Source of the DNA: Candidatus Iainarchaeum sp.
Lineage (GTDB): Archaea > Iainarchaeota > Iainarchaeia > Iainarchaeales > JAGVWC01
Reading direction: 5' to 3'
Assembly (NCBI GenBank): GCA_018304465.1
Contig: JAGVWC010000009.1
Location: 1-64,000, forward strand
DNA: 64,000 bases
Part shown: in pieces, positions 6,655-42,931 of the stretch
Numbering within the stretch: position 1 is the stretch's first letter
How the letters are laid out: the number at the start of each line of letters is the position of its first letter
Program-made: the position numbers and the translations under genes
Notes under the pieces: model-generated
Seen by the model: the letters and a program-made list of their open reading frames with translations, nothing else
Told to the model about the DNA's origin: nothing
Databases searched by the model: none

Positions 6655-7623
6655 ATGAACCCAAAGACCGCCGGAATTATTCGCGATATTCGCGCCGTCC
6701 GAATTCAGGGCGCAAGCCAAGTGCGGCACGCCGCAGTGAATGCGTTGTTATCCACGAGCCGGCAATCGAAAGCCAAAACCATGACCGCGTTTCGCGAAGA
6801 AATCGAAAAAACCGCGTTTGAACTGGTGAAAAGCCGTCCGACAGAACCGGGGTTGCGAACCGTGGTTCGCGTGTTGCTCGACGGCGCTTTCGGGTTTTCG
6901 AATGTTTCCGAAGCAAAAGAACAGCTGGTCAAAAAATGCCGCGAGTACGAAAAAAAACGCGAGGAAAACCTCAAGGCGATCCGGGAAATCGGAGCGCGCT
7001 TGTTTCCGAAAAACAGCACGGTGTTGACGCATTGCCATTCGCATACCGTGGAAGCGATTTTGATCAAAGCCAAAAAAAACATTGATACGGTGTATTGCAC
7101 CGAGACGCGGCCTTTGTTTCAGGGACGCATTACCGCGACGAATCTTTCGAAAGCGGGTTTGAACGTGGTTCAGATCGTGGACAGCGGCAGTTTTTCGGTG
7201 TTAAAAGAAAGCGATTTTTTCCTAACGGGCGCGGACGCGGTGCTGGCCAACGGAAACGTGGTCAACAAAGTGGGAACCGCATTGATTTCGCTTGCGGCAA
7301 AACGCTTCGGAACTCCCCACTATGTCGCGACTTCGACGTATTCGTTTGATCCGCTGAATTTTTTCGGCTGGCCCGAACCGATCGAAGAGCGAAGCACGTC
7401 CGAAGTGTGGCCGAAAAAACCGGCGCGAGTAAAAATCAAAAACCCGGCGTTCGACGTCACCGAAGCCGAATTGATCGCGGGAATCATTTGCGAAAAAGGC
7501 TTGCTGGCGCCTTCGGGATTTGCCGAAAAAATGATCGCGGAAATGGATTTGATCAATCATAAAAAAGAGTTTTTGGAAGGAATGAATCAAGCGGCTTTGC
7601 CGAAAAAAGCCGGAAAAAAATGA
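6655..7623 (+). CDS. Ribose-1,5-bisphosphate isomerase (aIF2B-like family)
   Basis: A 322-residue member of the aIF2B / R15P isomerase family. It converts ribose 1,5-bisphosphate to ribulose 1,5-bisphosphate in archaeal AMP degradation. The residues expected for the isomerase are present: Cys127 in THCHSHT and Asp194 in TGADAVLANG, plus the ligand-binding TETRP (149-153). The partner enzyme, AMP phosphorylase, is 14 bp downstream, and this pairing favours R15P isomerase over a true translation factor eIF2B subunit. In the known pathway the product goes to form III RuBisCO, which is not in this window. Confidence 0.88.
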   Translation: MNPKTAGIIRDIRAVRIQGASQVRHAAVNALLSTSRQSKAKTMTAFREEIEKTAFELVKSRPTEPGLRTVVRVLLDGAFGFSNVSEAKEQLVKKCREYEKKREENLKAIREIGARLFPKNSTVLTHCHSHTVEAILIKAKKNIDTVYCTETRPLFQGRITATNLSKAGLNVVQIVDSGSFSVLKESDFFLTGADAVLANGNVVNKVGTALISLAAKRFGTPHYVATSTYSFDPLNFFGWPEPIEERSTSEVWPKKPARVKIKNPAFDVTEAELIAGIICEKGLLAPSGFAEKMIAEMDLINHKKEFLEGMNQAALPKKAGKK

Positions 7624-7637
7624 AACGGGTGTTTTGA

Positions 7638-9191: not shown

Positions 9192-9197
9192 AAAGAT

Positions 9198-10028
9198 TCA
9201 GGATTTGCTTAAATGCAAGAACAGTTCCACGAATTCTTCGACTTCGAGCAAGTATACTTTTTGGTCTTTGAATTTCAGTCCTGAAATTTTTTTCTTCAGG
9301 GTTTCTTTGTCGATCCCCAGTTCTTTTTGGAGTAGCGGCACGCATAATTGAAGCGCGTTGGAAAGCGTTTTGTTTTTGTAGCGAAAAACATCCTTGATGA
9401 AACGGATGAATTTTTTTTCGTCGGATACGTCCCCGAATCTTTTTTTGGATTTGAGTTTTACGCACGCCGAAAAACCCTGGGGTTGCGGGAAAAACGCGTT
9501 GGATTCCACCATGAAAAGAATCTCGGGTTCGCAAAAATACTGGGTAATCACGGAAATCGTGGTGTAGTCTTCAAAACCGGGTTCGGCGAGTAATTTTTCG
9601 GCGAATTCTTTTTGGAACACCAAATAGGCTTCCGAAAAACCGATTTCAAGGATTTTGTAGATGACTTCGGACGAGATAGAGTATGGTGGAAGCGAAACGA
9701 TTTTGCTGAATTCGCCGGGTTTGAATTGACTGTCCAAAAAATCTTCGTGGCGAAGCGCGAGGTTTTTGGGTGCGAGTTCGGTTCGAAGCAAATCGAATAA
9801 TCGGTCGTCTTTTTCGATCGCGATCACACGGGTTTTTTCCTGTAGTTTTTTGGTCAAAAAACCGGTTCCGCAGCCGATTTCAAGAACGGTTTCGGTGGAT
9901 TTGAGTTTGGCCGCCGAAACAAGTTTCTCGAGCAGTTCGTCGCTGATGCAAAAGTTTTGGGATAACCGTTTGTCGGGTTTGAAATGGTATTTGACCATTA
10001 ATCCTTGGAGTTCGCCTAAAAGATTCAT
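9198..10028 (-). CDS. ksgA: rRNA adenine dimethyltransferase (KsgA/Dim1 family) with an altered catalytic motif
   Basis: The product is 276 residues from an ATG at 10028; the frame extends to 10121 but the family starts at this Met. SAM motif I is VLEIGCGTGFLTKKL (48-62), followed by the acidic motif II (AIEKDD). The rest, KEFAEKLLAEPGFEDYTTIS and FFPQP, matches archaeal Dim1, which dimethylates two adjacent adenines near the 3' end of 16S rRNA. The catalytic tetrapeptide, NLPY in nearly all family members, reads LPPY at 113-116 in an ungapped alignment, so the usual Asn is replaced by Leu. It sits in the conserved L21e-rpoF-DUF655-ksgA neighbourhood. Confidence 0.88.
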   Translation of the reverse strand: MNLLGELQGLMVKYHFKPDKRLSQNFCISDELLEKLVSAAKLKSTETVLEIGCGTGFLTKKLQEKTRVIAIEKDDRLFDLLRTELAPKNLALRHEDFLDSQFKPGEFSKIVSLPPYSISSEVIYKILEIGFSEAYLVFQKEFAEKLLAEPGFEDYTTISVITQYFCEPEILFMVESNAFFPQPQGFSACVKLKSKKRFGDVSDEKKFIRFIKDVFRYKNKTLSNALQLCVPLLQKELGIDKETLKKKISGLKFKDQKVYLLEVEEFVELFLHLSKS

Positions 10029-10086
10029 GGAGCTCGGAAAGAATAAGATTCGGAGGTTTAAAAAAGAAATGGAACAACCAAACAGG

Positions 10087-10971
10087 TTACATTTTTTGCA
10101 GCGCGGCAATGCGGCTCTCAATGGGCGGGTGCGTGGCGAACAAGCCTTTGAACCACATTTTTTGTCCTTTCAAAGGATTGGAAATGTACAAGTGTGCGGT
10201 GGCTTTGTTGGCGGCTTCGAGGGGTTCGGTGTCCTTGTCGAGTTTTCGAAGCGCACTAATCAATCCGTCGGGATACCGCGTGAGTTCGACCGAACTTGCG
10301 TCGGCGAGGTATTCGCGCTGGCGCGAAACCGCAAGTTGGATCAGCGTCGCGATCAGTGGGGAAAGAATCGCGAAGATGATTCCGACAACAAGCAAAACGA
10401 TGTCCATTTTTCCGCGTTCGCGGTTACCACTGCCCCAAAAAAACGAGCGAAGCAAAAAATCGGATAACAGCGCAGTGATGCCAACCATGACCGTGACCAG
10501 CGTCATGAACCGGATGTCGTAATTCTTGATGTGGCTCATTTCGTGGGCGACGACGCCTTCGAGTTCGCTTCGGTTCATCGCGGACAATAGTCCGGTGGTC
10601 GCGCAGATGACGGCGTGCTTCGGATCGCGTCCCGTGGCAAACGCGTTTAGGGCGGTGTCATTGATCACGTAGAGTTTGGGCATCGGAATGCCGGCGGCGA
10701 TCGCGAGTCCTTCGGACACGTTGTAAAAATGCGGAAATTCTTTTTGGGTTGCGGGTCGCGCACTGGATATTTTCAATACGATGGAATCGCTCCAGTAATA
10801 GGATCCGACGGAAAGGAGGATGACGATAAAAGCGGCGATTACGAGTCCGAAGATGCCCCACCCGGTGATTTCGGCAAAGAGCCAGGAAAGAATCAACAAG
10901 AAAATAACGAATCCGAAGACGATGAGGATGGATCGGAGTTTGTTCGATGAAATTTGTTCATACATTCCCAT
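10087..10971 (-). CDS. htpX: Membrane zinc metalloprotease HtpX
   Basis: A 294-residue M48-family protease. Two N-terminal membrane helices (about residues 14-32 and 36-55) precede the zinc site HEMSH in VVAHEMSHIKN, and a second pair of helices (about 165-215) is followed by the third zinc ligand in REYLADASSVELT. HtpX degrades misfolded membrane proteins. It lies downstream of lemA, a common bacterial pairing, and this pair interrupts a conserved archaeal translation neighbourhood, which suggests acquisition by transfer. A terminator-like hairpin separates it from lemA. Confidence 0.93.
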   Translation of the reverse strand: MGMYEQISSNKLRSILIVFGFVIFLLILSWLFAEITGWGIFGLVIAAFIVILLSVGSYYWSDSIVLKISSARPATQKEFPHFYNVSEGLAIAAGIPMPKLYVINDTALNAFATGRDPKHAVICATTGLLSAMNRSELEGVVAHEMSHIKNYDIRFMTLVTVMVGITALLSDFLLRSFFWGSGNRERGKMDIVLLVVGIIFAILSPLIATLIQLAVSRQREYLADASSVELTRYPDGLISALRKLDKDTEPLEAANKATAHLYISNPLKGQKMWFKGLFATHPPIESRIAALQKM

Positions 10972-10995
10972 GGTAATCCCCGTAATTAATTAATG

Positions 10996-11026
10996 AAAAT
11001 AAAAATAAAAAAGGCCCTTGCGGGCC
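10996..11026 (-). terminator. Hairpin-plus-U-tract terminator after lemA
   Basis: On the minus strand GGCCCGCAAGGGCC (11013-11026) folds into a 5-bp G/C stem and is followed by TTTTTTATTTTTATTTTC. This is the layout of a bacterial intrinsic terminator, placed directly after the lemA stop and before htpX. Confidence 0.6.
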
Positions 11027-11035
11027 GAATTGGGT

Positions 11036-11593
11036 TTAGAAAGAAACCTTGACGGCTTCCCTGCTTTTTTCTTCGATCTCGAAGTAGGGTTTTTCCTTGA
11101 ATCCGAAGATGCCGGCAACGATGCTTCCTGGAAACTGTTGGATGGCCGTGTCGTACGTCAGAACCGAGTCGTTGTAGAACTGGCGGGAGAACGCGATTTT
11201 TCCTTCAATTCCGGATAGCTCTTCTTGGAGCATCATGAAATTTTGGCTGGATTGGAGTTGCGGATATGCTTCGGCAACGGCAAACAGCGATTTCAAGGCT
11301 CCGGTGAGCATGTTGTTGGCTTCGGCGGTTTCCTGGACGTTGTTGGCTTTCATGATGGCGGCACGCGCCTTGGTCACTTCTTCGAAAACGGTTTTTTCCT
11401 GTTTGGCGTAACCTTTGACGGTTTCAACCAAATTCGGCACCAAATCGTATCGTTTTTTGAGTTGGACGTCGATTTGAGCCCAGGCATTGTCCACGCGGTT
11501 TCGAAGCAAGACCAGGCCGTTAAACATTAAGATTGCGGCCAGGATGAGGACAACCACTACGATGAGAATGATCCATAGAATAATGTCAAGCAT
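11036..11593 (-). CDS. lemA: LemA family membrane protein
   Basis: A 185-residue protein with one N-terminal membrane helix (residues 3-27) and a coiled helical domain carrying the family signature [20 protein letters not shown] and [15 protein letters not shown]. An ideal GGAGG precedes the ATG. LemA proteins are widespread in bacteria and patchy in archaea, and often accompany HtpX; their exact role is not settled. The domain should lie outside the membrane. Confidence 0.92.
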
Positions 11594-11673
11594 GGATTTT
11601 TTCCTCCGAGTTTATTACACAATTAGGAGTTTTTGGTATTAAAATAGGTTTTGTTTCGGAAAAAAAGGATTGA

Positions 11674-11817
11674 TTATTCTTTGATGAGCAAAATAAGGCC
11701 AACGACGAAAAAAACCAGCCAAAAATACGGTTGCAACAAATCGATTGGCGCGGGTAGTTTTGGAATCAATGTTCCGATGGCGACTCCGAGCATGAGCATT
11801 CCGATTTCGCGTGGCAT
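11674..11817 (-). CDS. Small two-helix membrane protein (47 residues)
   Basis: A short frame starting with ATG at 11817 encodes MPREIGMLMLGVAIGTLIP, a short PAPID turn and a second hydrophobic stretch (YFWLVFFVVGLILLIKE). Two membrane helices joined by a tight loop leave almost no soluble part. The open frame, the hydrophobic pattern and a promoter-like TATA 25-35 nt upstream support a real gene. No clear ribosome site is seen, consistent with a leaderless or short-leader mRNA. The family is not recognised; its neighbour lemA is also a membrane protein. Confidence 0.55.
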   Translation of the reverse strand: MPREIGMLMLGVAIGTLIPKLPAPIDLLQPYFWLVFFVVGLILLIKE

Positions 11818-11830
11818 TTGAATCCAATTA

Positions 11831-11854
11831 CACAACGCTGTTGTGCTTTAAATT
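11831..11854 (-). promoter_or_regulatory. Palindrome and TATA box before the small membrane protein
   Basis: CACAAC-GCT-GTTGTG (11831-11845) is a perfect 6-bp inverted repeat with a 3-nt centre. On the minus strand TTTAAAG sits directly upstream of it (about 11845-11853). A repressor bound to the palindrome would cover the transcription start. Confidence 0.45.
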
Positions 11855-12042
11855 CGTTTCGGGAGCGGTTTTGTCCCCAAAAACGTATTCTTGTATCCGA
11901 TTCTTTCGCAGGGCAAGTTTATTGAACAAAATCCAGGAAGTGTTCGATGTTGAATCGTTTTTTTCCCGCGTTGTTGCATTTGTCTTTGATGCAACCGTTG
12001 GTGGCGGTCTTTGTGGGCGTTAAAAAAAACGCAAGAAAAAAA
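11855..12042. other. Spacer downstream of the DUF655 gene
   Basis: About 190 bp with a poly-A stretch at 12022-12040 (T-rich on the minus strand, a likely terminator for the DUF655 gene). I see no convincing coding or RNA signal. Confidence 0.35.
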
Positions 12043-26245: not shown

Positions 26246-28015
26246 ATGAAGATTTTAGGATTGTATGACGGTCATAATGCGACGGCTGTTCTTTTGGAGG
26301 ATGGAAAAATTCTGGCGGCTGTCGAAGAAGAGCGGCTTTCGCGAATTAAATTTCACGATGGACGGTATGATGGTCCTCCGCATGCTTGTATCAACGAAGT
26401 ATTTCGTCTAACCAACACGCATCCAAGCGAAATTGATATGATCGCGATCCCGTTACTAGACCCGATTTCGCTTACGGCTCGCGTGTGGGGAAATATCGCA
26501 AAATCAAAAAATCTTCACTGGGCATTTTTCTTTGCGAATAATTTTGGAAACTGGGGACCGTTATATTATTTTTCACCATTTGATTATCAGAATCGGCGCA
26601 AAAAAAACATTCTTCAACTGCTTAAAGATCATGGATTGCAAGACAAACCGATTTTTTGGAGCGAACATCACATGGCGCACTGTGCATCGGCGTATTACAC
26701 CTCGAATTTGTCGAGCGACGTGTTGGCAGTTTGTTTTGATGGAAAAGGAGATGGGTTATCGGGACAAGCGTGCCTTGGAAGCGAAGGACGGTTGAAAGTG
26801 TTGGATCAAACGATCGAGTATCATTCTATCGGTTTGCTGTATTCGGCGATTACCGAATATTTGGGTTTTCGGCCCTTGCGACACGAAGGAAAAATAACGG
26901 GTCTTGCTGCGTTTGCCGATTGGAATAACCCGGCCTACGATATTTTGAAACAATACGCGTCGTTTAATTCGGGCGCAGTCCGTTTGAATGCCATTGAGAA
27001 ATTACCGGTCAAGCCATACCCGTGGCTTTCCACGCGCGATTTATTACCGAAAATTCGTCGGGATTTTGACGGAAAAAATATTCCGCGCGAACAGATTGCG
27101 TCCGCGGTTCAAAAAGTATGCGAAGACTTGATCGTGAAATATATTTCATATTGGATTAACAAAACCGGCGTCACAGACCTTGCCTTGTCAGGAGGGGTTT
27201 TTTCCAATGTAAAGATTAACCAGCGTATCATGGAGATCCCCAAAGTCAGCAGTATTTTTATTCATCCTGCGATGGGGGACGCGGGGCTTGCGGCCGGAGC
27301 TGCGTTTTTATGCCAAGCGTCTTCCGAAGGTCTTAAACCATTTGAATTAACCGATGTGTATTTCGGAATGGGGTATTCTAAAGCCGAGATTGAACACGAG
27401 ATTTCAAAATATAAAGGAATCGAGTATTATGAACCGGCAAACATTGCCAAAGAAACAGGTCAGATGATTGCGGATGGAAAAGTAGTTGCTCGTTTTGATG
27501 GACGAATGGAATATGGTCCAAGGGCGCTCGGAAACCGCACAATCATGTATGACCCGCAGGATCCGCAAGTCAATAAGTGGCTAAATGATCGATTAAACCG
27601 AACAGAGTTCATGCCGTTTGCACCTGTTGCATTGGAAGAGCATGCCGAAGAGCTCTATTTCGGGTTGGAAAAAGCCCGATATCCGGCGCGATTCATGACG
27701 ATTTCATTGGATACCACGCCGTTTGCCAAACAAAAAGCGGCGGCAGTCACCCATGTGGACGGAACCGCACGACCGCAGTTGATTAAGGAATCGTATAATC
27801 CGACGTATTATCGTATTCTGAAAGCGTTTTACTCCAATACCGGCATTCCATGTTGTGTGAACACAAGTTTTAATATGCATGAAGAACCGATTGTGGGGTC
27901 TCCTTATGATGCGGTGCGATCGTTTTTAATGGGTCGGCTCGATGTATTGTCCATTGGCGACTTTATGGTTACCATGAACAGTAACGAAAAAAGGGCGAAA
28001 AGAGTTTCCGAATGA
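26246..28015 (+). CDS. Carbamoyltransferase (NodU/CmcH/TobZ family)
   Basis: 589 residues. The N-terminal YrdC-like/ASKHA half starts MKILGLYDGHNATAVLLEDG, with VEEERLSRIKFHDG, the metal-binding HHMAHCASAYYTS at about 142-154 and FDGKGDG. The C-terminal half has MEYGPRALGNRTIMYDP and CVNTSFNMHEEP, typical of the family. These enzymes use carbamoyl phosphate and ATP to put a carbamoyl group on a hydroxyl. Overlap of 4 bp with the flippase gene suggests that the carbamoylated substrate is a lipid-linked glycan repeat before export. Confidence 0.92.
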   Translation: MKILGLYDGHNATAVLLEDGKILAAVEEERLSRIKFHDGRYDGPPHACINEVFRLTNTHPSEIDMIAIPLLDPISLTARVWGNIAKSKNLHWAFFFANNFGNWGPLYYFSPFDYQNRRKKNILQLLKDHGLQDKPIFWSEHHMAHCASAYYTSNLSSDVLAVCFDGKGDGLSGQACLGSEGRLKVLDQTIEYHSIGLLYSAITEYLGFRPLRHEGKITGLAAFADWNNPAYDILKQYASFNSGAVRLNAIEKLPVKPYPWLSTRDLLPKIRRDFDGKNIPREQIASAVQKVCEDLIVKYISYWINKTGVTDLALSGGVFSNVKINQRIMEIPKVSSIFIHPAMGDAGLAAGAAFLCQASSEGLKPFELTDVYFGMGYSKAEIEHEISKYKGIEYYEPANIAKETGQMIADGKVVARFDGRMEYGPRALGNRTIMYDPQDPQVNKWLNDRLNRTEFMPFAPVALEEHAEELYFGLEKARYPARFMTISLDTTPFAKQKAAAVTHVDGTARPQLIKESYNPTYYRILKAFYSNTGIPCCVNTSFNMHEEPIVGSPYDAVRSFLMGRLDVLSIGDFMVTMNSNEKRAKRVSE

Positions 28016-33734: not shown

Positions 33735-33962
33735 GGGGATATTCCTTTAGTTTGACCACAGCAAATCCAATAACTTCCACATAATTTAAGATGCTATAAA
33801 AGATCATTTCGTTTGAATAATAAAAGGCTTTTGGGTCAGCAAAAATCAGAATAAGAATAAAAGTATGATGGTTGTGTTTTTTATTGAAACTAAATAAGGA
33901 ATACTTCCGAAAAATAAATTTTAATTTGCATTTCTTCATGAATTGTTTCCAAAGTGTTGACA
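33735..33962. promoter_or_regulatory. AT-rich divergent spacer
   Basis: About 225 bp, more A/T-rich than its surroundings, with several TATA-like runs (for example AATTTTAATTT at about 33914-33924, plus strand). A 93-codon minus-strand frame crosses it but extends into the GT4 gene out of frame and has no protein-like composition. Confidence 0.3.
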
Positions 33963-34745
33963 ATGGAATTCCATCATTTTAAACGAACGTTTCGAAAAAT
34001 AAAAAAGACCCCGTCTTCAATCATCGGGATGTTTTCGCCGCGAAAAATTTCAATGGCCGTTTCATATATGTTTGAAATGAGCGAATACGAATTTGTTCAT
34101 CGTTTGACCGGTTGTTCGGAAAAAAAATTTTTTCGTCTTTTGGAAGAACTGAATTCTCAGAAAAAATTTTTCAATGCATTGGATAAAAAGCATAAAAAAT
34201 ATCTCAAAGATTCGATTTGGGAGCGTTTTCAGCCGTGGTTTCGCATCCTGTACATATTGATTCGGATCCAAAAACCCGAAAAAATGGTGGAAACGGGAAC
34301 TTTTTCAGGTTTGTCCACTTCAATTATTTTGCTTGCGATGAAAAAAAATCGCGGGGGACATTTGTACTCAATCGACCTTCCGATTCGGAATCCCAAAAAG
34401 GCCAAAAAAGACTGGATTTTAGAACCGCTTCCACCGGGAACTCATCCGGGATTTGCTATTCCGAATGTGTTGCGTAGTCGATGGGAATTAATCGAAGGAG
34501 ACAGTGGAAAAAATTTGCCTAAGTTGCTGGAAAAACTGGGGGAAATCGAAATTTTTTTCCACGATTCGGATCATTCATATGACCATATGATGATGGAATT
34601 TGGAACGGCCTGGCCATACATTAAATCCCGCGGACTATTACTGGCGGACAATGTGGATTGGAACCAGTCATTTAAAGATTTTGGTAAAAAGGTCGGGCAC
34701 AAACAAAATCAAAAATTTGGTTTTGGCGGAATTCTGAAACACTAA
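33963..34745 (+). CDS. Class I SAM-dependent methyltransferase (Methyltransf_24 / cephalosporin hydroxylase-like)
   Basis: About 260 residues (ATG 33963; a GTG at 33954 is in frame). Basic N-terminus, then motif I VETGTFSGLSTSIILLAM at about 107-124, acidic SIDLPIR and the metal-type FFHDSDHSYDHMMMEFG at about 205-221. The last motif resembles the cation-dependent O-methyltransferases that act on sugars or small acids. Stands alone on the plus strand beside the AcpS/ACP cassette. Confidence 0.82.
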   Translation: MEFHHFKRTFRKIKKTPSSIIGMFSPRKISMAVSYMFEMSEYEFVHRLTGCSEKKFFRLLEELNSQKKFFNALDKKHKKYLKDSIWERFQPWFRILYILIRIQKPEKMVETGTFSGLSTSIILLAMKKNRGGHLYSIDLPIRNPKKAKKDWILEPLPPGTHPGFAIPNVLRSRWELIEGDSGKNLPKLLEKLGEIEIFFHDSDHSYDHMMMEFGTAWPYIKSRGLLLADNVDWNQSFKDFGKKVGHKQNQKFGFGGILKH

Positions 34746-34755
34746 TTTTTCATGA

Positions 34756-35103
34756 TTACAATATCAACACCATGGCCATTGCATACTGGACGTCATGGGA
34801 AAGCGAACAAAAGATTGTTCTTTTTTTGAGTCCTGTTTTGTGAATTCGGATGGATGGAGACCCGTTTCGTAGAACAACTTCAATTTGGTTCCATGGAATT
34901 TGGGCTTGAACGCATTTTCGGACCGCTTCTTTGGCGCAGAATCGAGCGGCAAAATGTTGTCCGGGAACCGATTGGGCATTGCAATACCGGATCTCGGCCG
35001 CTGTAAAGACGCGCTGATAAAATCGTTTGTTTTTTGAAAATGGCCGCTGTTTGAATCGTCGCACTTGCTCAAAATCGATTCCGATTCCCTTCGGCTTTTT
35101 CAT
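34756..35103 (-). CDS. acpS: Holo-[acyl-carrier-protein] synthase (4'-phosphopantetheinyl transferase)
   Basis: 115 residues starting MKKPKGIGIDFEQVRRF. The two AcpS signatures are present: the metal-binding GIGIDFEQ at residues 7-14 and FAARFCAKEAVRKC at about 57-70. The enzyme moves 4'-phosphopantetheine from CoA to the serine of a carrier protein. The start at 35103 is supported by the TATA box centred about 26 nt upstream, giving a leaderless mRNA. Its obvious target, an ACP gene, diverges from the same box. AcpS is rare in archaea and suggests gene transfer from bacteria. Confidence 0.9.
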   Translation of the reverse strand: MKKPKGIGIDFEQVRRFKQRPFSKNKRFYQRVFTAAEIRYCNAQSVPGQHFAARFCAKEAVRKCVQAQIPWNQIEVVLRNGSPSIRIHKTGLKKRTIFCSLSHDVQYAMAMVLIL

Positions 35104-35125
35104 GCACAACACTTTGGACAAATTC

Positions 35126-35132
35126 TTTAAAA
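35126..35132. promoter_or_regulatory. Shared bidirectional TATA box for acpS and the ACP gene
   Basis: TTTAAAA contains the palindrome TTTAAA centred at 35128.5. The acpS start (35103) is 25.5 nt and the ACP start (35155) 26.5 nt away, both at the spacing expected for an archaeal transcription start on the first base of the gene. No ribosome-binding site precedes either ATG. Confidence 0.6.
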
Positions 35133-35154
35133 CACTACGTTACAGCAATCTTTC

Positions 35155-35379
35155 ATGCTCGAAAAGATCGAGAGTATTATCGCAAAGATTTTCGGAGCCA
35201 AAAATCCGCTTTCGAGATCCACTGTTCTTTCTTCGATTCCGTCTTGGGATTCATTGAATGCATTATTGTTGATCAGTGAGATTGAACAGGCGTTTGGGGT
35301 TACTTTTTCGGACCAAGAAATTTTATCGATTAAAACGATTGGCGATATTGAAGATTGCATTCGAAAAAAGAAAAGCTAA
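35155..35379 (+). CDS. Acyl carrier protein
   Basis: A 74-residue helical protein with the carrier motif WDSLNALLLISEIEQAFG. Ser33 in DSL is the phosphopantetheine site. The surrounding helix II and the acidic second half (FSDQEILSIKTIGDIEDCI) fit ACPs of the FkbJ/short modular type rather than the fatty-acid ACP. Likely leaderless. It is the only carrier protein in the window; AcpS diverges from it and the FkbH-like loader converges on it, their stop codons overlapping by 4 bp. No ketosynthase is nearby, so chain extension is not expected. Confidence 0.92.
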   Translation: MLEKIESIIAKIFGAKNPLSRSTVLSSIPSWDSLNALLLISEIEQAFGVTFSDQEILSIKTIGDIEDCIRKKKS

Positions 35380-37208
35380 GAAACGATTTTTATTTTTCCC
35401 GGAATTGCTTGTTTAAACTCGTTTTTTCCAAGTGAAAAAAACCAGTGCGAGTCTCCTTTAGAAGTTGTTTTTTCGTTTGAAAACCCCGCGTTTAAAAACA
35501 AGTCTTTGGAAACTTGGTTTTTTTCGGTTCGAAGATAACGTCCCCTCACCATTGCGGCTTTTTGGCGTTTCGCGTTTTCGAGGACATATTGTAAAAGCGC
35601 GTACTCTACTTTGCGGCCTAGTACCCGGCAACTGAGCAAAAAGGAATCAATATTCCATTCGTTTGGATTCGTTTTGTCCAAAATCAGGACGCCGACAATT
35701 CCGTTGTCTCCAAAGCGGTCTTTGACACGGATTGCCAGTATGTTCCACTTGGAGTTTTTTTGCATGTTTTCAATTTCAGCCACCGTATATCGTTTGGTCG
35801 TGAGATTAAACTGGTTGGTTTTGTGCACGAGTTGGGTGATGCGATCCAGGTTTTCGGGTTTTGCCGAAAACACCGTGATTTCTTGTTTTAATCCTTTTAA
35901 ATAAGCTTCGAGCGAACCGGCTTGTTCTTTGAATTCAGTTCTTTGGCGTTGTTTTTGGTACATTTCTTTTTTTTCCAGGTCTTCTTTGGTGATTGCGATT
36001 TTTTCAAAAAACGGTTGTTTGGATAAAAACAACCGGTATTCTTTGGGATCTTCGGGCATTTCTGGCACTGTGACCTGCGGCAGCATTGTGGCTACGAGGC
36101 CTCGTTCAATTGGGTTGTCATCGACAAACACCATGCTGTCGAGCCCGATGTTTAGTTCGTCGGCAATGGATTGGAGGTTTTGGGCTTTGTCCGTCCAGTT
36201 GATTCGAATCGAGGCAAAATCGCTTTTTTGGAGTACCATGTCAGAGTGTTTTTGAAACACTTCTTCGACGTCTTCCGGATTGTTTTTGCTATTGATCGCA
36301 AGCAAAATTCCGCGTTCGGTTAGTTGTTTTAGAAATTGTTGAAATTCAAAAAATTCTTTTCCGGCACTGGTTTTGCTGAGTTTAATATGTTCTAAACCAT
36401 CTTCTCCGATAACGCCTCCCCAGAGCACATTGTCCAAATCCAAGACTACGCATTTTTTGGTTGTGCCCTTGAAGGCGCGCACGTATCGGTTTAATTGATT
36501 GGCAATAAACACCATGAAATCATAGGACCATCGGATGTCCCCGCGGTAATATAATCTTGGATCAAAGGCGCGTTCGCGTCCAAACACACTGGCCGCATAC
36601 TCAGTATCCAATACAAATACGTTTTTTACGTTGGAAAACGTTTTGGCCAGTTGTTGATTGGTTTTTTGAATGAGTTCTACTTGTCCCGAACTTTTGTTAT
36701 CCAAAATTCCAAGGGATAAGGGAAACGGAAGGCGAAAATTACTCACCAAAATTAAGGACCTGGTTTTTTGAACAAGCACTTCGACTAGTTGGCCTACGTC
36801 TTTAACGGCTTCTTGGCATTCTTTTTCTTTTTCCAAAACGGTTGTTTTCAAACTCCATTCAAAGCTTTTGGGAAGAATGGTTTGTCCATCCAGAGCCAAA
36901 AAAACGATTTCGGGGGAAAACGCGTATAGTTCGGAAGATGGATCCAAGATTTCTTTATGCACTTGGTTGTAAGGTCCAAAGTAAATCGTGGGGTTAAACC
37001 CTGCCAATCGACAAGCCAGGGAAAGCGGAATCTCCATGGGTCGAATCGTAAAATTGGACAATACTGCAATTTTGAGGGGTGGGAGAGAATTGGTTTCTTT
37101 TTGGAATTCGTGAAAAAGATCAGTGGTTTCAAGATACGTCAATGCATCGCGGTTCTTCAACAGGAGAAGATATTCCTCGAACAAGGTTTTGCGAAGGGTT
37201 TGGGTCAT
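35376..37208 (-). CDS. FkbH-like protein: HAD-IIIC domain plus GNAT-like domain
   Basis: 610 residues. Residues 1-240 form an SGNH/Rossmann-like N-terminal domain seen in long FkbH proteins. The HAD core has CVVLDLDNVLWGGVIGEDG with the nucleophile pair Asp257/Asp259, INSKNNPEDV and MVFVDDNPIERG. The C-terminal ~150 residues are GNAT-like (DNGIVGVLILD, SCRVLGRKVEYALL). In polyketide systems FkbH takes 1,3-bisphosphoglycerate, dephosphorylates it and loads glyceryl on an ACP. In bacterial O-antigen loci relatives work with an ACP to acylate amino sugars. It begins the overlapping chain FkbH, SDR, MaoC, hexapeptide transferase read in the reverse genomic order. Confidence 0.92.
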   Translation of the reverse strand: MTQTLRKTLFEEYLLLLKNRDALTYLETTDLFHEFQKETNSLPPLKIAVLSNFTIRPMEIPLSLACRLAGFNPTIYFGPYNQVHKEILDPSSELYAFSPEIVFLALDGQTILPKSFEWSLKTTVLEKEKECQEAVKDVGQLVEVLVQKTRSLILVSNFRLPFPLSLGILDNKSSGQVELIQKTNQQLAKTFSNVKNVFVLDTEYAASVFGRERAFDPRLYYRGDIRWSYDFMVFIANQLNRYVRAFKGTTKKCVVLDLDNVLWGGVIGEDGLEHIKLSKTSAGKEFFEFQQFLKQLTERGILLAINSKNNPEDVEEVFQKHSDMVLQKSDFASIRINWTDKAQNLQSIADELNIGLDSMVFVDDNPIERGLVATMLPQVTVPEMPEDPKEYRLFLSKQPFFEKIAITKEDLEKKEMYQKQRQRTEFKEQAGSLEAYLKGLKQEITVFSAKPENLDRITQLVHKTNQFNLTTKRYTVAEIENMQKNSKWNILAIRVKDRFGDNGIVGVLILDKTNPNEWNIDSFLLSCRVLGRKVEYALLQYVLENAKRQKAAMVRGRYLRTEKNQVSKDLFLNAGFSNEKTTSKGDSHWFFSLGKNEFKQAIPGKIKIVS

Positions 37209-37951
37209 GGCATGATGCTCCCGCCGCTCACAACAATATTGGATCCGGTCAAATATTGGCTTTCATCACTTGCCAAAAAAACAATGGTTTGAGCAATTTC
37301 TTTTGGCGTAGCAATGCGTTTGAGCGGAATCTCTTGGGTTTTTTGGCGGAGGGTTTCTTCGGATAAATGAGCAATAGCATCGGTTTGGGTGATCCCAGGA
37401 GAAACCATGTTGACGCGGATTTGATAGGCGGCCAGTTCGCTCGCAAGTGATTTGGAGAGGCCCATTAAGGCGGATTTCGCCGAAACGTACGAACTCAACA
37501 TGACCGGGGGTTTTCCAAGGGCATAAGTGGAAAGAATATTAATAATACTCCCTTTTTTTTGTTGGATCATAGAGGGCAGCACGCTTTGGATACAGTAAAA
37601 GGATCCACCCAAATGTACCGTAATATCTTTTTGGACATCGCTCCATTCAAGTGTTTGAAAACGTTTGGGAAGAATGGGACCGCTGGCATTATTCACGAGC
37701 ACGTCAATGGATTTGAACCGATTCAAGGCTTGTTGAACCATAGAGTGTACTGCGTTGGGGTCCGTTACATCGGCTTGGATGGCAATGGCGTGGGAACCAA
37801 GTTCTTTGGCGAGTTTTAATGCATTGGCGGAATCCGAGTTATAATTAATGATGACTTTGGCGCCTTCAGATACACATAAACGACAAATTTCGCTTCCGAT
37901 GCCGCCGCTTCCGCCGGTTACCAGCACTACTTTGTTTTTGAGTCGCTCCAT
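37205..37951 (-). CDS. FabG-like short-chain dehydrogenase/reductase
   Basis: A 248-residue classical SDR. Cofactor site VTGGSGGIGSE (11-21), NNAS at 87-90, and the catalytic residues Ser141, Tyr155 and Lys159 (YVSAK) are all in place. The pattern is that of 3-oxoacyl-ACP reductases. Stop overlaps the FkbH start by 4 bp and its start is 4 bp from the MaoC stop. With ACP and MaoC as neighbours, NADPH reduction of a 3-oxoacyl or 2-oxoacyl thioester is the best guess; reduction of a sugar keto group is possible too. Confidence 0.87.
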   Translation of the reverse strand: MERLKNKVVLVTGGSGGIGSEICRLCVSEGAKVIINYNSDSANALKLAKELGSHAIAIQADVTDPNAVHSMVQQALNRFKSIDVLVNNASGPILPKRFQTLEWSDVQKDITVHLGGSFYCIQSVLPSMIQQKKGSIINILSTYALGKPPVMLSSYVSAKSALMGLSKSLASELAAYQIRVNMVSPGITQTDAIAHLSEETLRQKTQEIPLKRIATPKEIAQTIVFLASDESQYLTGSNIVVSGGSIMP

Positions 37952-37955
37952 GGAT

Positions 37956-38387
37956 TCACCTCAATACCTTGACTTTGGCAACCCCGTCCACCAGAATTTC
38001 TTCTTTTGCATTTCGGGCTTGGGTTTGGATGGTTAAAATGCGCGTTGAATCGGATTTTGCAATGACGGTTCCTTGAATCGTGAGTCGAGAAGGAAGAAAG
38101 ACGGGTTTTCGAAAAACGCTTTCCTGAGAAAGATACAGGCAATATTTTCCTGGAAGATGCATCCCAACCAATTGCGAAAAGAAAGCGTTGATAAGTGCTC
38201 CGTGACAAATAGGTTGCGAAAACTCGGTTTCTTTGGCATACGTTGGATCCATGTGAAGCGGGTTGTAATCCCCTGAAAGGCCTGCAAATTCTTTTACTGT
38301 TTGATGGTTAACCGTTACAGGAAAGGAAACATGGCTGCCGATTTGAATTTCGTCAAATACTTTTTCTTCGACCGAAGCCGCCTTCAT
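37956..38387 (-). CDS. MaoC-like (R)-specific enoyl hydratase
   Basis: A 143-residue single hot-dog protein. GDYNPLHMDPTYAKETEF holds the hydratase pair Asp40 and His45, and CHGALINAFFSQLVG continues the motif. These enzymes hydrate enoyl-CoA or enoyl-ACP to (R)-3-hydroxyacyl thioesters. Together with the FabG-like enzyme it suggests a 3-hydroxyacyl group, such as 3-hydroxybutyryl. Overlaps the next gene upstream by 4 bp. Confidence 0.88.
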   Translation of the reverse strand: MKAASVEEKVFDEIQIGSHVSFPVTVNHQTVKEFAGLSGDYNPLHMDPTYAKETEFSQPICHGALINAFFSQLVGMHLPGKYCLYLSQESVFRKPVFLPSRLTIQGTVIAKSDSTRILTIQTQARNAKEEILVDGVAKVKVLR

Positions 38388-38929
38388 AAGGTTGACACCA
38401 CCCGTGCTGGATTTCCAAGTGCAACGGAATGAGGGGGAATACTCGAAGCCACAACGCTTCCTGCGCCGATGAGCGCGTATGGTCCAATGTGCACACCAGG
38501 TAAGATAATAGACCCGCTTCCGATGTATACATGGTCGTGAATTTGAATCGGGTCGCTGGTAATGGAGCGACCGGGAATAGCACAGGGTCGAAATGATGCG
38601 GATGGTTTGGCTGAGACTTTTGACATGGATTCGATTCCATGAGTTAAGAAGGTTACGTGGGGGGCAATATCCACATTGTTTCCGAGAATAATTTTTTCTT
38701 CAAGATCAAACATCGTGAGGTTTCCGATCACTACGTCATTTCCAATCTCTAGATTTTTGTAGGAATAGATTTGAAAAAAGCGTAATTCTCCCATCACAAC
38801 GTTGGATCCGATTCGGCATCCAATTAATCGAAATAAAAAAGTTCGAATGGGGGGAAGCAAAATGATCCTCTGAATTCGGTCAAAAATGAGGAAAAAAAAG
38901 AGGACTATGCGACTTGGCTTTTGAGTCAT
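38384..38929 (-). CDS. Left-handed beta-helix (hexapeptide) acyltransferase
   Basis: 181 residues from ATG 38929 (GTG 38935 possible). A hydrophobic N-terminal helix (VLFFFLIFDRIQRIIL) precedes hexapeptide repeats, including IGNDVVIGNLTMF, ILGNNVDIAPHVTFLTHG with the catalytic-type His, and VYIGSGSIILPGVHIGPYAL. The family transfers acyl groups to sugar hydroxyl or amino groups. Position at the head of the ACP cassette makes it a candidate for the final transfer step from acyl-ACP to a sugar. The membrane-binding helix suggests a lipid-linked acceptor. Confidence 0.85.
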   Translation of the reverse strand: MTQKPSRIVLFFFLIFDRIQRIILLPPIRTFLFRLIGCRIGSNVVMGELRFFQIYSYKNLEIGNDVVIGNLTMFDLEEKIILGNNVDIAPHVTFLTHGIESMSKVSAKPSASFRPCAIPGRSITSDPIQIHDHVYIGSGSIILPGVHIGPYALIGAGSVVASSIPPHSVALGNPARVVSTL

Positions 38930-38970
38930 GAACACCTAAACAACTATGTAAAGATATGGTATATATTTTT

Positions 38971-39927
38971 TTAGTTACGGTGTCCGGGTGGGGAAAAGAT
39001 CCCTTTTAATGAAAATGAACGTAGGTATTGAGAAATAGTTGGGTAATATAGGACGAAAAACAACCCGCTCGTCGCCTGGTTGATAATCAAGACAATGGTT
39101 AAAGCCAGCAAGGAAATTTCAACAGGGATCGAAATCAAGGTATACAAATATACCAGACTCCCTTCCTTTAGTCCGATGCCACTGGGAGTAATGGGAATAT
39201 ACCCAATCAAAAGCGATGCGATACTTAGAATGACAAACGGAATAATGGGCGGAGAGAGCCCAAACCCCAAGAAGACAATGTAAAGCGTCATACTTGCGAT
39301 AACAAGTCGAAGAATGCTTAGAACCAGATTCAAAAGAATTCTTTTTTTTTCGAATAGATACAATTGAATGGTTTTTCCGAATCCTTCCAACAGCGGTTTT
39401 TCAGTGGGAAAAAAACGCTGAATAACTTTTCGCACCAATACGCGTCCCGTAGGGGTGAGACTAAAAAAAGATAAAATCATTAATCCCGCGATTCCAAGCA
39501 AAAGCATAACGAGGGTATTTTCTAAGAAAAACGCTACGGATAACGCCACAAAAATCAAAACTGCCACCAGTGAAATCAGTTTGTCCAAAAATACCATCGC
39601 GCTGGTGCTTCCTAGGCGTGCGCCTTTTTTTTCCAAAAAAGTCGCTACAAATAGTTCACCTAAATGACCAGGCAGGAAAGCATTGATTGCAAAAAGGAGA
39701 TTGGACAGCGTTACGGATTCTTTGAAAGAAATTTTCAATACGGGTTGTGCAAAAAAATATAGATTCAATCCCGAAACAAGGAAAGTGAACGCGATAGGAA
39801 TAAGAGTCAATAAGAGAAAAACGAAATTAAAACGAGAAAACGCGGCAATAATTTTTTCAGGTCCGACGGTCAAATAAAGAATACTCAGAATCAGGAGTCC
39901 GATTCCAATTCCGATTCTTTTGTCCAT
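38971..39927 (-). CDS. UPF0104 / LPG-synthase-type membrane protein (flippase-like)
   Basis: 318 residues with 8 or so membrane helices and the family features NLLFAINAFLPGHLGELFVA at about 86-105 and IPITPSGIGLKEGSLVYLYT at about 240-260. Related proteins flip or synthesise aminoacyl-lipids; archaeal members in glycan islands are often called flippase-like. A paralogue is encoded at 49 kb. A specific substrate cannot be read from sequence. Confidence 0.85.
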   Translation of the reverse strand: MDKRIGIGIGLLILSILYLTVGPEKIIAAFSRFNFVFLLLTLIPIAFTFLVSGLNLYFFAQPVLKISFKESVTLSNLLFAINAFLPGHLGELFVATFLEKKGARLGSTSAMVFLDKLISLVAVLIFVALSVAFFLENTLVMLLLGIAGLMILSFFSLTPTGRVLVRKVIQRFFPTEKPLLEGFGKTIQLYLFEKKRILLNLVLSILRLVIASMTLYIVFLGFGLSPPIIPFVILSIASLLIGYIPITPSGIGLKEGSLVYLYTLISIPVEISLLALTIVLIINQATSGLFFVLYYPTISQYLRSFSLKGIFSPPGHRN

Positions 39928-39959: not shown

Positions 39960-41069
39960 TTAGTTTTGTGAAAAAAAGTTTCGAACGACTTGAATGACAT
40001 AGTCAATTTGTGCGCGTGTAATTCCCGCACCACTAGGCAATGACACTCCACTCGAGCTAATTTCTTCGGAAACAGGAAACGATTCGGAAGAGTGGTACGG
40101 TGGAAGTTGACTCAAGGGATAAAATACACGACGCGAATCAATTCCGTGTCTTTTTAGGACATTCATAAACGAATCACGATGAGGTACCTTGATCGTGGTC
40201 ATCCACCATACGCTTTCTGAGTTTTTTGGGGATTGTTGAAATTCAATTGAAGAAATATCCGAAAGACCGTTCAGATAGGCTTTGTACACTTCTTTTTTTT
40301 GTTGAATAATTTTTTGGATTCCTTCCAATTGTCCCAATCCAAATCCGGCTTGTAAAGCGGTCATTCGATAGTTGAACGCAATTTCGGGATGCCAGTATTG
40401 TTGCTCGGGAATCATTCCGTGGTTTTTCAAAAAATTAACCCGGTCGATTAATTGAGAATTGTTCGATACGACCATTCCGCCTTCGCCCGTCGTAATGATT
40501 TTGTTTCCAAAAAAGCTGAATGCGCTCAAGTCTCCGAATCCGCCCACGGTTTTTCCTTCAAAGCGGGCGCCGTGTGCTTCCGCCGCATCTTCGATGAGAG
40601 GCAGCTGGTGGGTTTTGGCAATTTTGGTTAATGCCGACATGTCACACGGAGCACCATATAGATGAACACACACAATTGCTTTGGTTTTATCCGTTATTTT
40701 TTCTTCGATTTTTTTTGGGTCCAAGTTCCAGGTTTTTGGATCCACATCGACAAACACGGGTTTGGCCCCTAAATATGCCGCGGCATTGGCGGTTGCAATA
40801 AACGACAAATTCGGCATCAAAACTTCGTCGTCTTTTTGGATTCCGACCGCGTGGTACGCCAAATGCAAGGCGGCAGTTCCATTCGAAACCGAAGTTGCGT
40901 ATCGGGTTCCCACAAATTGCGCGAATGCATCTTCAAAGCGTTTGACAAACGGGCCTTTGGAGGAAACCCATTTGGTTCGAATGGCTTCGGTTACGTATTT
41001 TTCTTCGTTACCGCAAAGGATGGTATCGGCAATGGGAATGAATTCGTGGACTTCTTTTTGTAAGGTCAT
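39960..41069 (-). CDS. DegT/DnrJ/EryC1 family sugar aminotransferase
   Basis: 369 residues from ATG 41069, behind a GAGG. PLP lysine Lys190 in SFFGNKIITTGEGG; other motifs are SNGTAALHLAYHAV, IEDAAEAHGARFEG and NYRMTALQAGFGLGQL. It installs an amino group on a 4-keto-6-deoxy (perosamine-type) or 3-keto nucleotide sugar. Eight bp after the epimerase gene, whose product it probably uses. An amino sugar made here would be a natural acceptor for the ACP-carried acyl group. Confidence 0.92.
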   Translation of the reverse strand: MTLQKEVHEFIPIADTILCGNEEKYVTEAIRTKWVSSKGPFVKRFEDAFAQFVGTRYATSVSNGTAALHLAYHAVGIQKDDEVLMPNLSFIATANAAAYLGAKPVFVDVDPKTWNLDPKKIEEKITDKTKAIVCVHLYGAPCDMSALTKIAKTHQLPLIEDAAEAHGARFEGKTVGGFGDLSAFSFFGNKIITTGEGGMVVSNNSQLIDRVNFLKNHGMIPEQQYWHPEIAFNYRMTALQAGFGLGQLEGIQKIIQQKKEVYKAYLNGLSDISSIEFQQSPKNSESVWWMTTIKVPHRDSFMNVLKRHGIDSRRVFYPLSQLPPYHSSESFPVSEEISSSGVSLPSGAGITRAQIDYVIQVVRNFFSQN

Positions 41070-41076
41070 TTTTTCC

Positions 41077-42066
41077 TCATTGGACGAGCGATTTTTGTTT
41101 GGCTGCTTCCCATGGCCATTTTTGATCATTCTCGTTGAAATAGTCCACGGTTTTTTGCAGTCCTTCTTCAAAGGATACTTTGGGTTCCCAGCCGGTTAGT
41201 TTATGGAGTTTGAAATAACTGGCTTGGAGTTGTTCAACATCGAGGGGTCGTAAGCGTCGTTGTTCAATGGAAATATCAATGGAATCATGACCCATGATGG
41301 CCGATATTTTTTCGGCGATTTCTTTGATGCTAAAATCGGTTCCATAGCCGCCGTTAAAGACTTGGCCCACGGCTTTGGGTTCTTTCATCAATGCGATCCC
41401 GGCTTTGGCGGCGTCAGTTACGTAAGTAAAGTCGCGGCGGGCATTGATATTTCCGAGTTTGAGCTTGTTCGATTTCGATAATTGTGAAATGAGTTCCGGG
41501 ATAATGTAAGGATGGGTTTCGCGGGGTCCAAAGCAATTGAATTGGCGCAAAATAATAACGGGCAGTTCTTGTTCGTAATGTAAGGTGTAACAGAGTCGAT
41601 CCGCAGCGGCTTTGGCCACTGCGTAGGTCGAATGCGGATTGATGGGATGGTGTTCGTCCATGGGAACTTGACGCGCGGTTCCATAGACTTCGCTCGTGGA
41701 CCATTGAATGATGCGTTCAACCCCGGTTTTTTTGGCTGCCAGCATGACATTTAATGCACCGGTGGCGTTGATGTCAAAAAAATCAAAGGGTTTGTCGTAA
41801 CAATCGGGAATATACGGCATGGCCGCGAGATTGAACACGTATTGGATATGATGATCCTTTAAAATCTGGGAAAACAGGGGACTTCGGATGTCTTCTTCAA
41901 TGATCGTGATTTCGTTTTTGATTTCTTCAAGGTTTTCGTGTAATCCGCTCATGAAATTGTCCAGTATCGTGACATTGGCGTTTACAGCCCGTAACTCTCG
42001 AACGAGGGTAGAACCGATAAATCCGGCGCCCCCCGTGACCATAACGTTTTTTCCAGATAAACTCAT
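41077..42066 (-). CDS. NAD-dependent nucleotide-sugar epimerase/dehydratase
   Basis: 329 residues from ATG 42066. Extended SDR with VTGGAGFIGSTLVREL, STSEVYGTARQVPMDE and the catalytic YAVAK. The C-terminus GWEPKVSFEEGLQKTVDYF is standard. Pairing with the DegT aminotransferase favours a 4,6-dehydratase or 4-epimerase supplying a keto sugar. GGGGA lies before the start, and a TATA box at 42115-42122 gives a 26-nt leader. The gene diverges from the RHH-nucleotidyltransferase fusion. Confidence 0.9.
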   Translation of the reverse strand: MSLSGKNVMVTGGAGFIGSTLVRELRAVNANVTILDNFMSGLHENLEEIKNEITIIEEDIRSPLFSQILKDHHIQYVFNLAAMPYIPDCYDKPFDFFDINATGALNVMLAAKKTGVERIIQWSTSEVYGTARQVPMDEHHPINPHSTYAVAKAAADRLCYTLHYEQELPVIILRQFNCFGPRETHPYIIPELISQLSKSNKLKLGNINARRDFTYVTDAAKAGIALMKEPKAVGQVFNGGYGTDFSIKEIAEKISAIMGHDSIDISIEQRRLRPLDVEQLQASYFKLHKLTGWEPKVSFEEGLQKTVDYFNENDQKWPWEAAKQKSLVQ

Positions 42067-42196
42067 AACAATCCCCAAGTATTACTTCTTACTACTTTAT
42101 CCTACCTTTATGTTTTTATAAAGATTTTGGTGCGATCAAACCCCTTTTTCCGGTTTCGAATGCAAATTTAAATACTTTGACGGTTTTTTTGGATAG
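42067..42196. promoter_or_regulatory. Divergent promoters of the epimerase-aminotransferase pair and the RHH fusion gene
   Basis: Minus-strand TATA TTTATAAA at 42115-42122 precedes the epimerase. Plus-strand TATA TTTAAATA at 42167-42174 is about 26 nt before the ATG of the RHH gene, indicating a leaderless mRNA. AGTATTACTT and TTACTACTTT at about 42079-42099 are imperfect direct repeats that could be RHH operator half-sites. Confidence 0.5.
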
Positions 42197-42931
42197 ATGA
42201 AGGAAAAAATATCCATTTCACTTGATTCCGGCACGATTGCGTCCCTGGATCAAAGTATTGATAATAAATTGATTCGAAATCGAAGCCAAGCCGTCGAATT
42301 CGTTTTGGCCCAATATTTTGATTCCAAAGCCCCGCTCAAAGCCGTGTTGCTGGGCGGCAAACTGGAAGAATCCGCCAAACTGTTGAATTTGAACAAGATT
42401 CTGGATGAATTGGCCCAAGCCGGCGTCACGGAACTCATTGTCGCGGGCGGAAAAGCAACGGAGCGGATTTTTTCGGAAATCCAAAAACATCCGTTTTATT
42501 CGAAAAAATGCATGTACTTGCGTGAAGACGCTCCGCTTGGAACCGCGGGCGCGGTAAAACTGGCGGCCAATTATTTGCAGCACGCGTTTATCGTCACGTA
42601 TTTGGACGTCGAATTTTCCATGGACTTGGCCAAGATGGTTGCGTTTCATAAAAAATCCCGCGGACCGGCCACCATGGCGGTCACGTATGTGGAAGGAAAC
42701 AACCTGACGGATTACATTCGGATTTCAGGGGAAAACATCAGCGAATTCGAATACAAATCCGGTCGCACCACCAAATTGCAGAACGCGGCCGTGTATGTAT
42801 TCGAGCCCTCGATTTTGGAAGAGTTGCCTTCAAAAGGCGGCTTGGAAAAAGAATTGTTTCCGCAATTGGCCAAAGAAGGAAAGCTTCGCGGATTCATGTT
42901 CGACACCAAATGGAAGCATCTTGAAAAATAA
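42197..42931 (+). CDS. Ribbon-helix-helix DNA-binding domain fused to a degenerate sugar nucleotidyltransferase
   Basis: 244 residues. Residues 1-42 are a CopG/MetJ-type RHH domain: the strand KISISLDSGTIASLDQSI, then IRNRSQAVEFVLAQYF. Residues 47-244 follow the NTP-transferase fold: AVLLGGK, APLGTAGAVKLA, TYLDVEF, QNAAVYVFEP and a final WKHLEK. The signature GGxGTRLxPLTxxxPKPL is replaced by GGKLEESAKLLNLNKIL, without the Arg and Lys of active enzymes, while the sugar-binding strands remain. The simplest reading is a transcription regulator that senses a nucleotide sugar or sugar phosphate. It diverges from an epimerase-aminotransferase operon, its likely target. Confidence 0.8.
   Translation: MKEKISISLDSGTIASLDQSIDNKLIRNRSQAVEFVLAQYFDSKAPLKAVLLGGKLEESAKLLNLNKILDELAQAGVTELIVAGGKATERIFSEIQKHPFYSKKCMYLREDAPLGTAGAVKLAANYLQHAFIVTYLDVEFSMDLAKMVAFHKKSRGPATMAVTYVEGNNLTDYIRISGENISEFEYKSGRTTKLQNAAVYVFEPSILEELPSKGGLEKELFPQLAKEGKLRGFMFDTKWKHLEK

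Follow-up and report, generated by a model that had tools for sequence, protein, structure and literature searches.

Three-part FkbH enzymes, which turn 1,3-bisphosphoglycerate into a glyceryl unit on a carrier (PMC7489565; PMC8949500), are found with a free-standing acyl carrier protein (ACP) in modules of polyketide synthase (PKS) and nonribosomal peptide synthetase (NRPS) pathways, such as those of FK520, of tetronates (e.g., tetromadurin) and of vioprolide (PMC7489565). The papers found on the subject state that archaea lack ACPs, and ACP-type genes of fatty-acid metabolism are mentioned in one study of DPANN archaea (PMC10936187). Here, we describe a cassette of six genes encoding a holo-ACP synthase (AcpS), an ACP, an FkbH protein, a FabG-like short-chain dehydrogenase/reductase (SDR), a MaoC hydratase/dehydratase and a left-handed beta-helix (LbH) acyltransferase, located in a 64,000-nucleotide stretch of Candidatus Iainarchaeum sp. 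(assembly GCA_018304465.1, contig JAGVWC010000009.1), the whole of which is called the window. The cassette shares with the modules above the three-part FkbH and the free-standing ACP; unlike them, it has no PKS, NRPS or FabH-like partner, its AcpS is encoded in the locus, its host is an archaeon, and its acyl group would be delivered to a sugar. We consider it rather probable that these genes constitute a self-contained ACP-dependent module, which makes a small hydroxy-acyl group and attaches it to an amino sugar in the surface glycan of its archaeal host.

The cassette and its host genome

An earlier note on this DNA had placed the six genes together, and all of them were recovered at those positions, with matched families and intact signature residues. 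On the minus strand lie the hexapeptide-type LbH acyltransferase (38384..38935; PF00132, WbbJ/WcaF-like, His99), MaoC (37956..38387; PF01575, 68.8 bits; Asp40 and His45), the SDR (37205..37951; PF13561/PF00106; Tyr155 and Lys159) and FkbH (35376..37208; PF21211 and TIGR01686). The spacings taken from the open reading frames agreed with the close packing previously noted for these four genes, with a 4-bp overlap between LbH and MaoC, a 4-bp gap between MaoC and the SDR, and a 4-bp overlap between the SDR and FkbH, a configuration that is a tight minus-strand operon. The ACP gene (35155..35379, plus strand; PF00550, 34.2 bits), with its phosphopantetheine site Ser33 in the motif SWDSLN, stands outside this operon because it runs on the other strand, with 33 bp between it and the divergent acpS gene and a stop-to-stop overlap of 4 bp with FkbH. 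The acpS gene (34756..35121, minus strand; PF01648, 67.5 bits) is annotated from a TTG codon; an internal ATG 18 bp downstream, which would give a protein starting MKKPKG, is the likelier true start.

The FkbH protein (610 amino acids) comprises an N-terminal domain, a HAD phosphatase and a GNAT-like putative glyceryl transferase, and it scored 322.6 bits against TIGR01686, for which the cut-off is 146.65. The features of an FkbH-type loading module were found in the window, namely the FkbH_N domain, the HAD DxD motif, a GNAT-like part with a conserved Cys, and a dedicated adjoining ACP with its phosphopantetheine Ser. In an AlphaFold2 model (mean pLDDT 87.9), the N-terminal and HAD parts matched PDB 3SLR, and the C-terminal part matched GNAT folds over about 150-190 columns. 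Among archaeal homologues, FkbH residues D257, D259, D363, D364 and C527 were present in 66/66, Ser33 of the ACP was conserved in 62/63, D16 of AcpS was kept in 56/57 and its E65 and K69 in 57/57, and D40 and H45 of MaoC were found in 27/27. The nearest structure to MaoC was the R-specific enoyl-CoA hydratase 1IQ6, and the closest solved structure to the LbH acyltransferase by sequence was QdtC (3FS8).

The contig also encodes the ribosomal proteins uL10 (with the L10P insert), uL1 and uL11, all of archaeal type, and is therefore not a stray bacterial contig. Family searches of the genome (1.25 Mb, 92% complete) revealed one ACP and one phosphopantetheinyl transferase, which is the cassette AcpS. 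No FabD-type transacylase (PF00698) was detected in these searches, nor was any true ketosynthase, the single match to the ketosynthase family (PF00109) being a 390-amino-acid protein that reads as an archaeal thiolase. These observations together indicate that the ACP does not serve fatty-acid synthesis. The absence of a ketosynthase and an acyltransferase of fatty-acid synthesis, first reported for the locus, thus extends to the genome, and the full synthase elsewhere that would have counted against the proposal, in its type II form a ketosynthase plus a malonyl-CoA:ACP transacylase, was not found within the completeness of the assembly.

Recurrence among archaea

A view of the cassette as a singular archaeal case was not supported, since the module recurs in Asgard archaea, Nitrososphaerales, Nanoarchaeota, Bathyarchaeia and Micrarchaeota. 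An FkbH-alignment scan of GTDB genomes was evaluated over the best 80 of 581 confirmed relatives, among which the nine top ones were all archaeal (Bathyarchaeum, Lokiarchaeota, two Thorarchaeota, an unclassified Asgard archaeon, Nitrosopumilales, marine group I, Nitrosotenuis and Heimdallarchaeota), with Nanoarchaeota, Nitrososphaerales and Micrarchaeota lower down. FkbH scored above the curated cut-off in 38/228 Asgard genomes, 24/300 of the order Nitrososphaerales, 12/371 Nanoarchaeota, 8/257 Bathyarchaeia and 2/245 Micrarchaeota, counts that include some short or divergent forms without an ACP. Within the host phylum, 2 of 87 genomes presented FkbH above the cut-off and 2 an ACP. The PF00550 profile alone was a poor survey tool for ACPs, having missed 5 of 13 archaeal genomes in which the cassette ACP was plain by context. 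When viral contigs were scanned with a single FkbH or AcpS protein no relatives were found, and scanning with the FkbH alignment gave eight FkbH loci.

Neighbourhoods were counted with hidden Markov models grown from the window proteins, in loci flanked by 2.5 kb or more on each side. Around archaeal FkbH genes (n=54), the ACP was present in 48 loci, AcpS in 47, the LbH acyltransferase in 43, MaoC in 21 and the SDR in 5. Around bacterial FkbH genes (n=53), the ACP was found in 43 loci, LbH in 7 and AcpS in none, an extreme contrast for AcpS (Fisher p about 4e-23, related genomes not being independent). In larger sets of loci, AcpS was near FkbH in 55/69 archaeal and 0/66 bacterial cases. The AcpS model detects the Bacillus AcpS at 91 bits, and the bacterial zero is thus not blindness to bacterial AcpS, although Sfp-type transferases would not be seen by it. 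The simple reading is that bacteria use their housekeeping AcpS, whereas archaea must carry one with the module.

In archaea, the module has FkbH, ACP and AcpS as its constant core; MaoC is optional (25/69), and the SDR is rarer (5/69) and never occurs without MaoC. An archaeal cassette was defined by FkbH, ACP, AcpS and an LbH acyltransferase within 2.5 kb, all of which are found in the window, and the window LbH protein belongs to the same family as the cassette-linked ones of other archaea. Closely similar kits, each including an AcpS, are carried by at least five further archaeal groups. The full set of six was found in four other archaeal loci, L234 and L235 (Nanoarchaeota) and L265 and L266 (Nitrososphaerales), and five of the six, AcpS missing, in locus L038 (Nitrospinia). 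Dozens of archaeal genomes contain this combination, and its presence in the window is therefore not due to chance.

In the FkbH tree, Asgard archaea and Bathyarchaeia formed one clade (support 100/99), and Nitrososphaerales, Nanoarchaeota and Micrarchaeota another, which included one Clostridiaceae (99/98); the window FkbH stood beside both and a few bacteria and could be assigned to neither clade. Approximately unbiased tests rejected none of the arrangements tried, namely archaeal monophyly including the window (p 0.10, or 0.37 with L064), the window with Asgard/Bathyarchaeia (0.26), and the window with Nitrososphaerales/Nanoarchaeota/Micrarchaeota and L064 (0.17). None of the archaeal placements tried being excluded, we claim no direction of transfer. 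Among the compared loci, the window AcpS, ACP, FkbH, MaoC and LbH were nearest to archaeal cassettes (MaoC being 51-53% identical to thaumarchaeal cassette MaoC), and the best matches of the SDR were split between a nanoarchaeal fusion and Nitrospinia; the MaoC tree pointed to thaumarchaea and the SDR tree to Nitrospinia. The cassette probably has a mosaic make-up and travels between lineages.

Other forms of FkbH were observed in archaea. A short FkbH of about 350 amino acids, without the N-terminal domain, is encoded in L015 (G027:C47, 918-8179), as well as in L237, L238 and L249; in L015 it adjoins MaoC in a nonulosonic-acid-like island (NeuB, CMP-sugar synthetase and KdsC-like phosphatase, by reading), and no ACP was detected in that genome. 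A second, divergent full-length class, forming a deep separate branch, was found in L285-L288 (Asgard) and L246 (Bathyarchaeia), where no ACP or AcpS was found within about 7 kb.

The proposed acyl group and its acceptor

The proposed pathway would start with the conversion of the sole ACP into holo-ACP at Ser33 by AcpS, a well-supported step. As its family membership suggests, FkbH would very probably take 1,3-bisphosphoglycerate, strip the phosphates and load D-glyceryl on the ACP. MaoC may then eliminate the 3-hydroxyl, yielding pyruvyl-ACP, which the SDR may reduce to lactyl-ACP; for this step the chances appear evenly balanced. It is quite probable that the LbH acyltransferase would pass the acyl group on to a sugar with a free amine. 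In the window this amine would most likely come from an adjoining LegB-like/DegT pair, and elsewhere in archaea a NodB-type deacetylase would expose it. The acylated sugar would enter the glycan of this island, which contains glycosyltransferases, with AglB/STT3 elsewhere in the window.

The occurrence of the SDR nested within MaoC loci fits dehydration before reduction; for the order of fatty-acid synthesis, in which reduction precedes dehydration, the opposite nesting would be expected. Lactyl formation by MaoC and SDR would be analogous to the bryostatin loading module, a parallel for which literature searches found no paper. Both acyl groups are found on bacterial glycans, D-glyceroyl on QuiNAc4N (PMC10609480) and N-lactyl on Rha4N, Fuc3N and Pse (PMC9912281). 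The earlier note had left the choice between glyceryl, lactyl and 3-hydroxybutyryl. The small-acyl, ACP-dependent part of this proposal stood, and gene co-occurrence favours a start from glyceryl loaded by FkbH, with lactyl among the likely end products, and speaks against 3-hydroxybutyryl.

It is possible to propose that glyceroyl is the sole product and that MaoC and the SDR have another substrate, for example an intermediate of a sugar pathway; Asgard and Bathyarchaeia loci hold just AcpS, FkbH, ACP, LbH and a deacetylase, and the glyceroyl-bearing QuiNAc4N offers a precedent. This is unlikely, however, because the window has MaoC, the SDR and FkbH packed together with a 4-bp gap or an overlap, and these three genes are also found together in Nanoarchaeota, Nitrososphaerales and bacteria. 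In bacterial FkbH loci, all of the large SDR/MaoC-like proteins tested (10/10: L013, L040, L044, L047, L049, L051, L058, L072, L084 and L101) were MaoC-SDR fusions with the MaoC domain first. It is still more doubtful that a C4 group, 3-hydroxybutyryl, is built on the ACP from acetoacetyl units via the SDR and moved by LbH to the amino sugar. The FabG-like nature of the SDR, the thiolase encoded elsewhere in the genome and the abundance of 3-hydroxybutyryl, the commonest hydroxy-acyl amide on bacterial amino sugars (PMC10609480), would agree with it, but no loader of acetoacetyl or malonyl groups on the ACP was found by the genome searches, FkbH, the invariant partner, would have no role, and most archaeal cassettes contain FkbH and no SDR.

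An oxidised or methylated C3 unit of the FK520 type (methoxymalonyl- or O-methylglyceryl-ACP), made with the help of a neighbouring methyltransferase, is highly improbable. A Methyltransf_24 gene (33954..34745, plus strand; PF13578, 67.6 bits), whose association with the cassette is uncertain, adjoins AcpS, and similar proteins lie near 5/24 thaumarchaeal cassettes; however, the cassette includes neither an acyl-CoA dehydrogenase nor a 3-hydroxyacyl-CoA dehydrogenase as a partner, glycan islands commonly contain methyltransferases, and no PKS was identified. The methoxymalonyl-ACP pathway itself was rejected, as FkbI- and FkbK-type dehydrogenases are not in the cassette, in which Pfam and NCBIfam show SDR and MaoC only. 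The glycerate-utilisation operon of tetronates was rejected as well, the cassette lacking a FabH-like enzyme and homologues of Agg4 and Agg5. Separately, a stand-alone 2-oxoacid-dehydrogenase E2-type acyltransferase domain, reminiscent of Agg4 of tetronate operons, was observed in a nanoarchaeal six-gene cassette (L235:8119-8736). Finally, a bacterial-type fatty-acid or membrane-lipid pathway is scarcely credible, for although AcpS, ACP, FabG-like and MaoC proteins are enzymes of fatty-acid type, the cassette lies in a glycan island of a 92%-complete genome with the single ACP, no FabD and only the thiolase-like match described above.

Regarding the acceptor of the preferred small hydroxy-acyl group, a DegT aminotransferase together with a 4,6-dehydratase is the usual route to 4-amino-4,6-dideoxy sugars. 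In the window, a DegT/LegC-like aminotransferase, the proposed source of the amino group (39960..41171, minus strand; PF01041, 412 bits; TIGR04181, 369 bits), and a LegB-like nucleotide-sugar 4,6-dehydratase (41077..42078, minus strand; PF16363/PF01370; TIGR04180, 241 bits) are encoded next to the cassette, upstream of it. In other archaea, a polysaccharide deacetylase (PF01522, with DUF3473 in thaumarchaea) was found in the locus in 21/21 Asgard, 6/7 Bathyarchaeia and 20/24 Nitrososphaerales cases, as a rule immediately adjoining the LbH acyltransferase, and L038 includes a PIG-L de-N-acetylase within its set; in Nanoarchaeota and Micrarchaeota loci no deacetylase was detected, except one PIG-L. 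By analogy, the natural reading of this pairing is that a sugar amine would be exposed and then acylated, which strengthens the amino-sugar acceptor proposed earlier.

Several points weigh against this interpretation. Most thaumarchaeal loci contain MaoC without a linked SDR, so that pyruvyl or another product is possible there; synthesis might end with pyruvyl, or a reductase might be recruited from elsewhere. Position 261 of the window FkbH is Val, where most relatives have Thr (Val in 10/66 archaeal rows), and its substrate and hydrolysis chemistry could differ. The LegB and LegC matches (TIGR04180 and TIGR04181) are below the curated cut-offs and would not fix the exact sugar; no relative of the deacetylase was found in the window, where the aminotransferase occurs instead. 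The LbH family includes acetyl-CoA O-acetyltransferases; the nearest NCBIfam models to the window protein are of this kind, and by family models they are as near as the PglD/QdtC type of N-acyltransferase for nucleotide amino sugars. The biochemistry of any archaeal member was not found in the literature.

The surroundings in the window comprise glycosyltransferases, a UDP-sugar dehydrogenase, a Wzx-like flippase and the AglB/STT3 oligosaccharyltransferase, and the loci look built for glycan work, not for lipids. A membrane protein similar to LPG synthase/flippases (LPG-synthase-TM; 38971..39927, minus strand; PF03706, 108 bits) lies between the cassette and DegT, its association being uncertain. 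The same island encodes another sugar-decorating enzyme, a carbamoyltransferase of NodU/TobZ type (26246-28015). A nucleotidyltransferase (42197-42931) begins with a CopG-type ribbon-helix-helix-like segment, read by eye, and NeuB-like proteins of relatives (L015:5931-6968 and L017:955-1998) present the same start, also by eye.

Related systems and biological meaning

The bacterial sets of L038 (Nitrospinia), L064 (Clostridiaceae) and L099 (Planctomycetota) resemble the window in FkbH, ACP, MaoC and SDR, the last two being fused in many, and L038 also in its LbH transferase and PIG-L deacetylase; they differ in the lack of a nearby AcpS. The order of events proposed for archaea has a parallel in LpxC-LpxD of lipid A and in NodB-NodA/NodF of Nod factors, in which a sugar amine is freed and then N-acylated from ACP. 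LpxD is an LbH acyl-ACP N-acyltransferase, and NodB belongs to the deacetylase family of the other archaeal cassettes. In contrast to these systems, the archaeal module would use a small hydroxy acid instead of a fatty acid, involves other loading families and has no lipid A or Nod backbone.

In the flagellin glycosylation islands of Enterobacteriaceae (Acp, LuxE, LuxC, CaiC and FabG; PMC4875605), an ACP and acyl enzymes also occur in a surface-glycan island. No FkbH is described there, and these islands correspond to a second archaeal cassette, observed in a relative of the same order (L016; G022:C50:75000-90000, 5478-11978). This different ACP cassette, also in a glycan island, encodes a polysaccharide deacetylase, AcpS, ACP, an AMP-binding ligase, a Fe-alcohol dehydrogenase, LuxE and LuxC; its AcpS is 47% identical to that of the window, its best match. 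In a cassette-bearing Asgard genome (G090:C123:26618-27148), an open frame of 3604 amino acids was observed that contains two or more carrier-protein domains and is possibly an NRPS or PKS.

The earlier note knew of no described example, and the literature search also found none: searches on FkbH with O-antigen and on ACP with archaeal glycosylation yielded no description of the module, nor was an archaeal FkbH-ACP module found described, most subscription papers lying outside the reach of the search. The FkbH-family chemistry is known, and the archaeal, AcpS-bearing and glycan-linked form looks undescribed. Even for bacteria the genes behind N-glyceroyl and N-lactoyl sugars are not settled, and the one for glyceroyl in the S-layer glycan of Tannerella has been called elusive (PMC6120980).

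The chances seem about equal, for and against, that these loci represent a general archaeal ACP system, present in at least six groups with its own AcpS, which would acylate amino sugars to glyceroyl, pyruvoyl or lactoyl amides. In 40-plus archaeal loci, among them those of Asgard archaea, Bathyarchaeia and ammonia-oxidising archaea, a dedicated ACP is accompanied by an AcpS of its own. If the proposal is true, glycan acylation would be the main use of ACPs in archaea, and the statement that archaea have none would be overturned. The proposal predicts specific masses in archaeal glycans, and it provides concrete candidates for the genes that make N-glyceroyl and N-lactoyl sugars.

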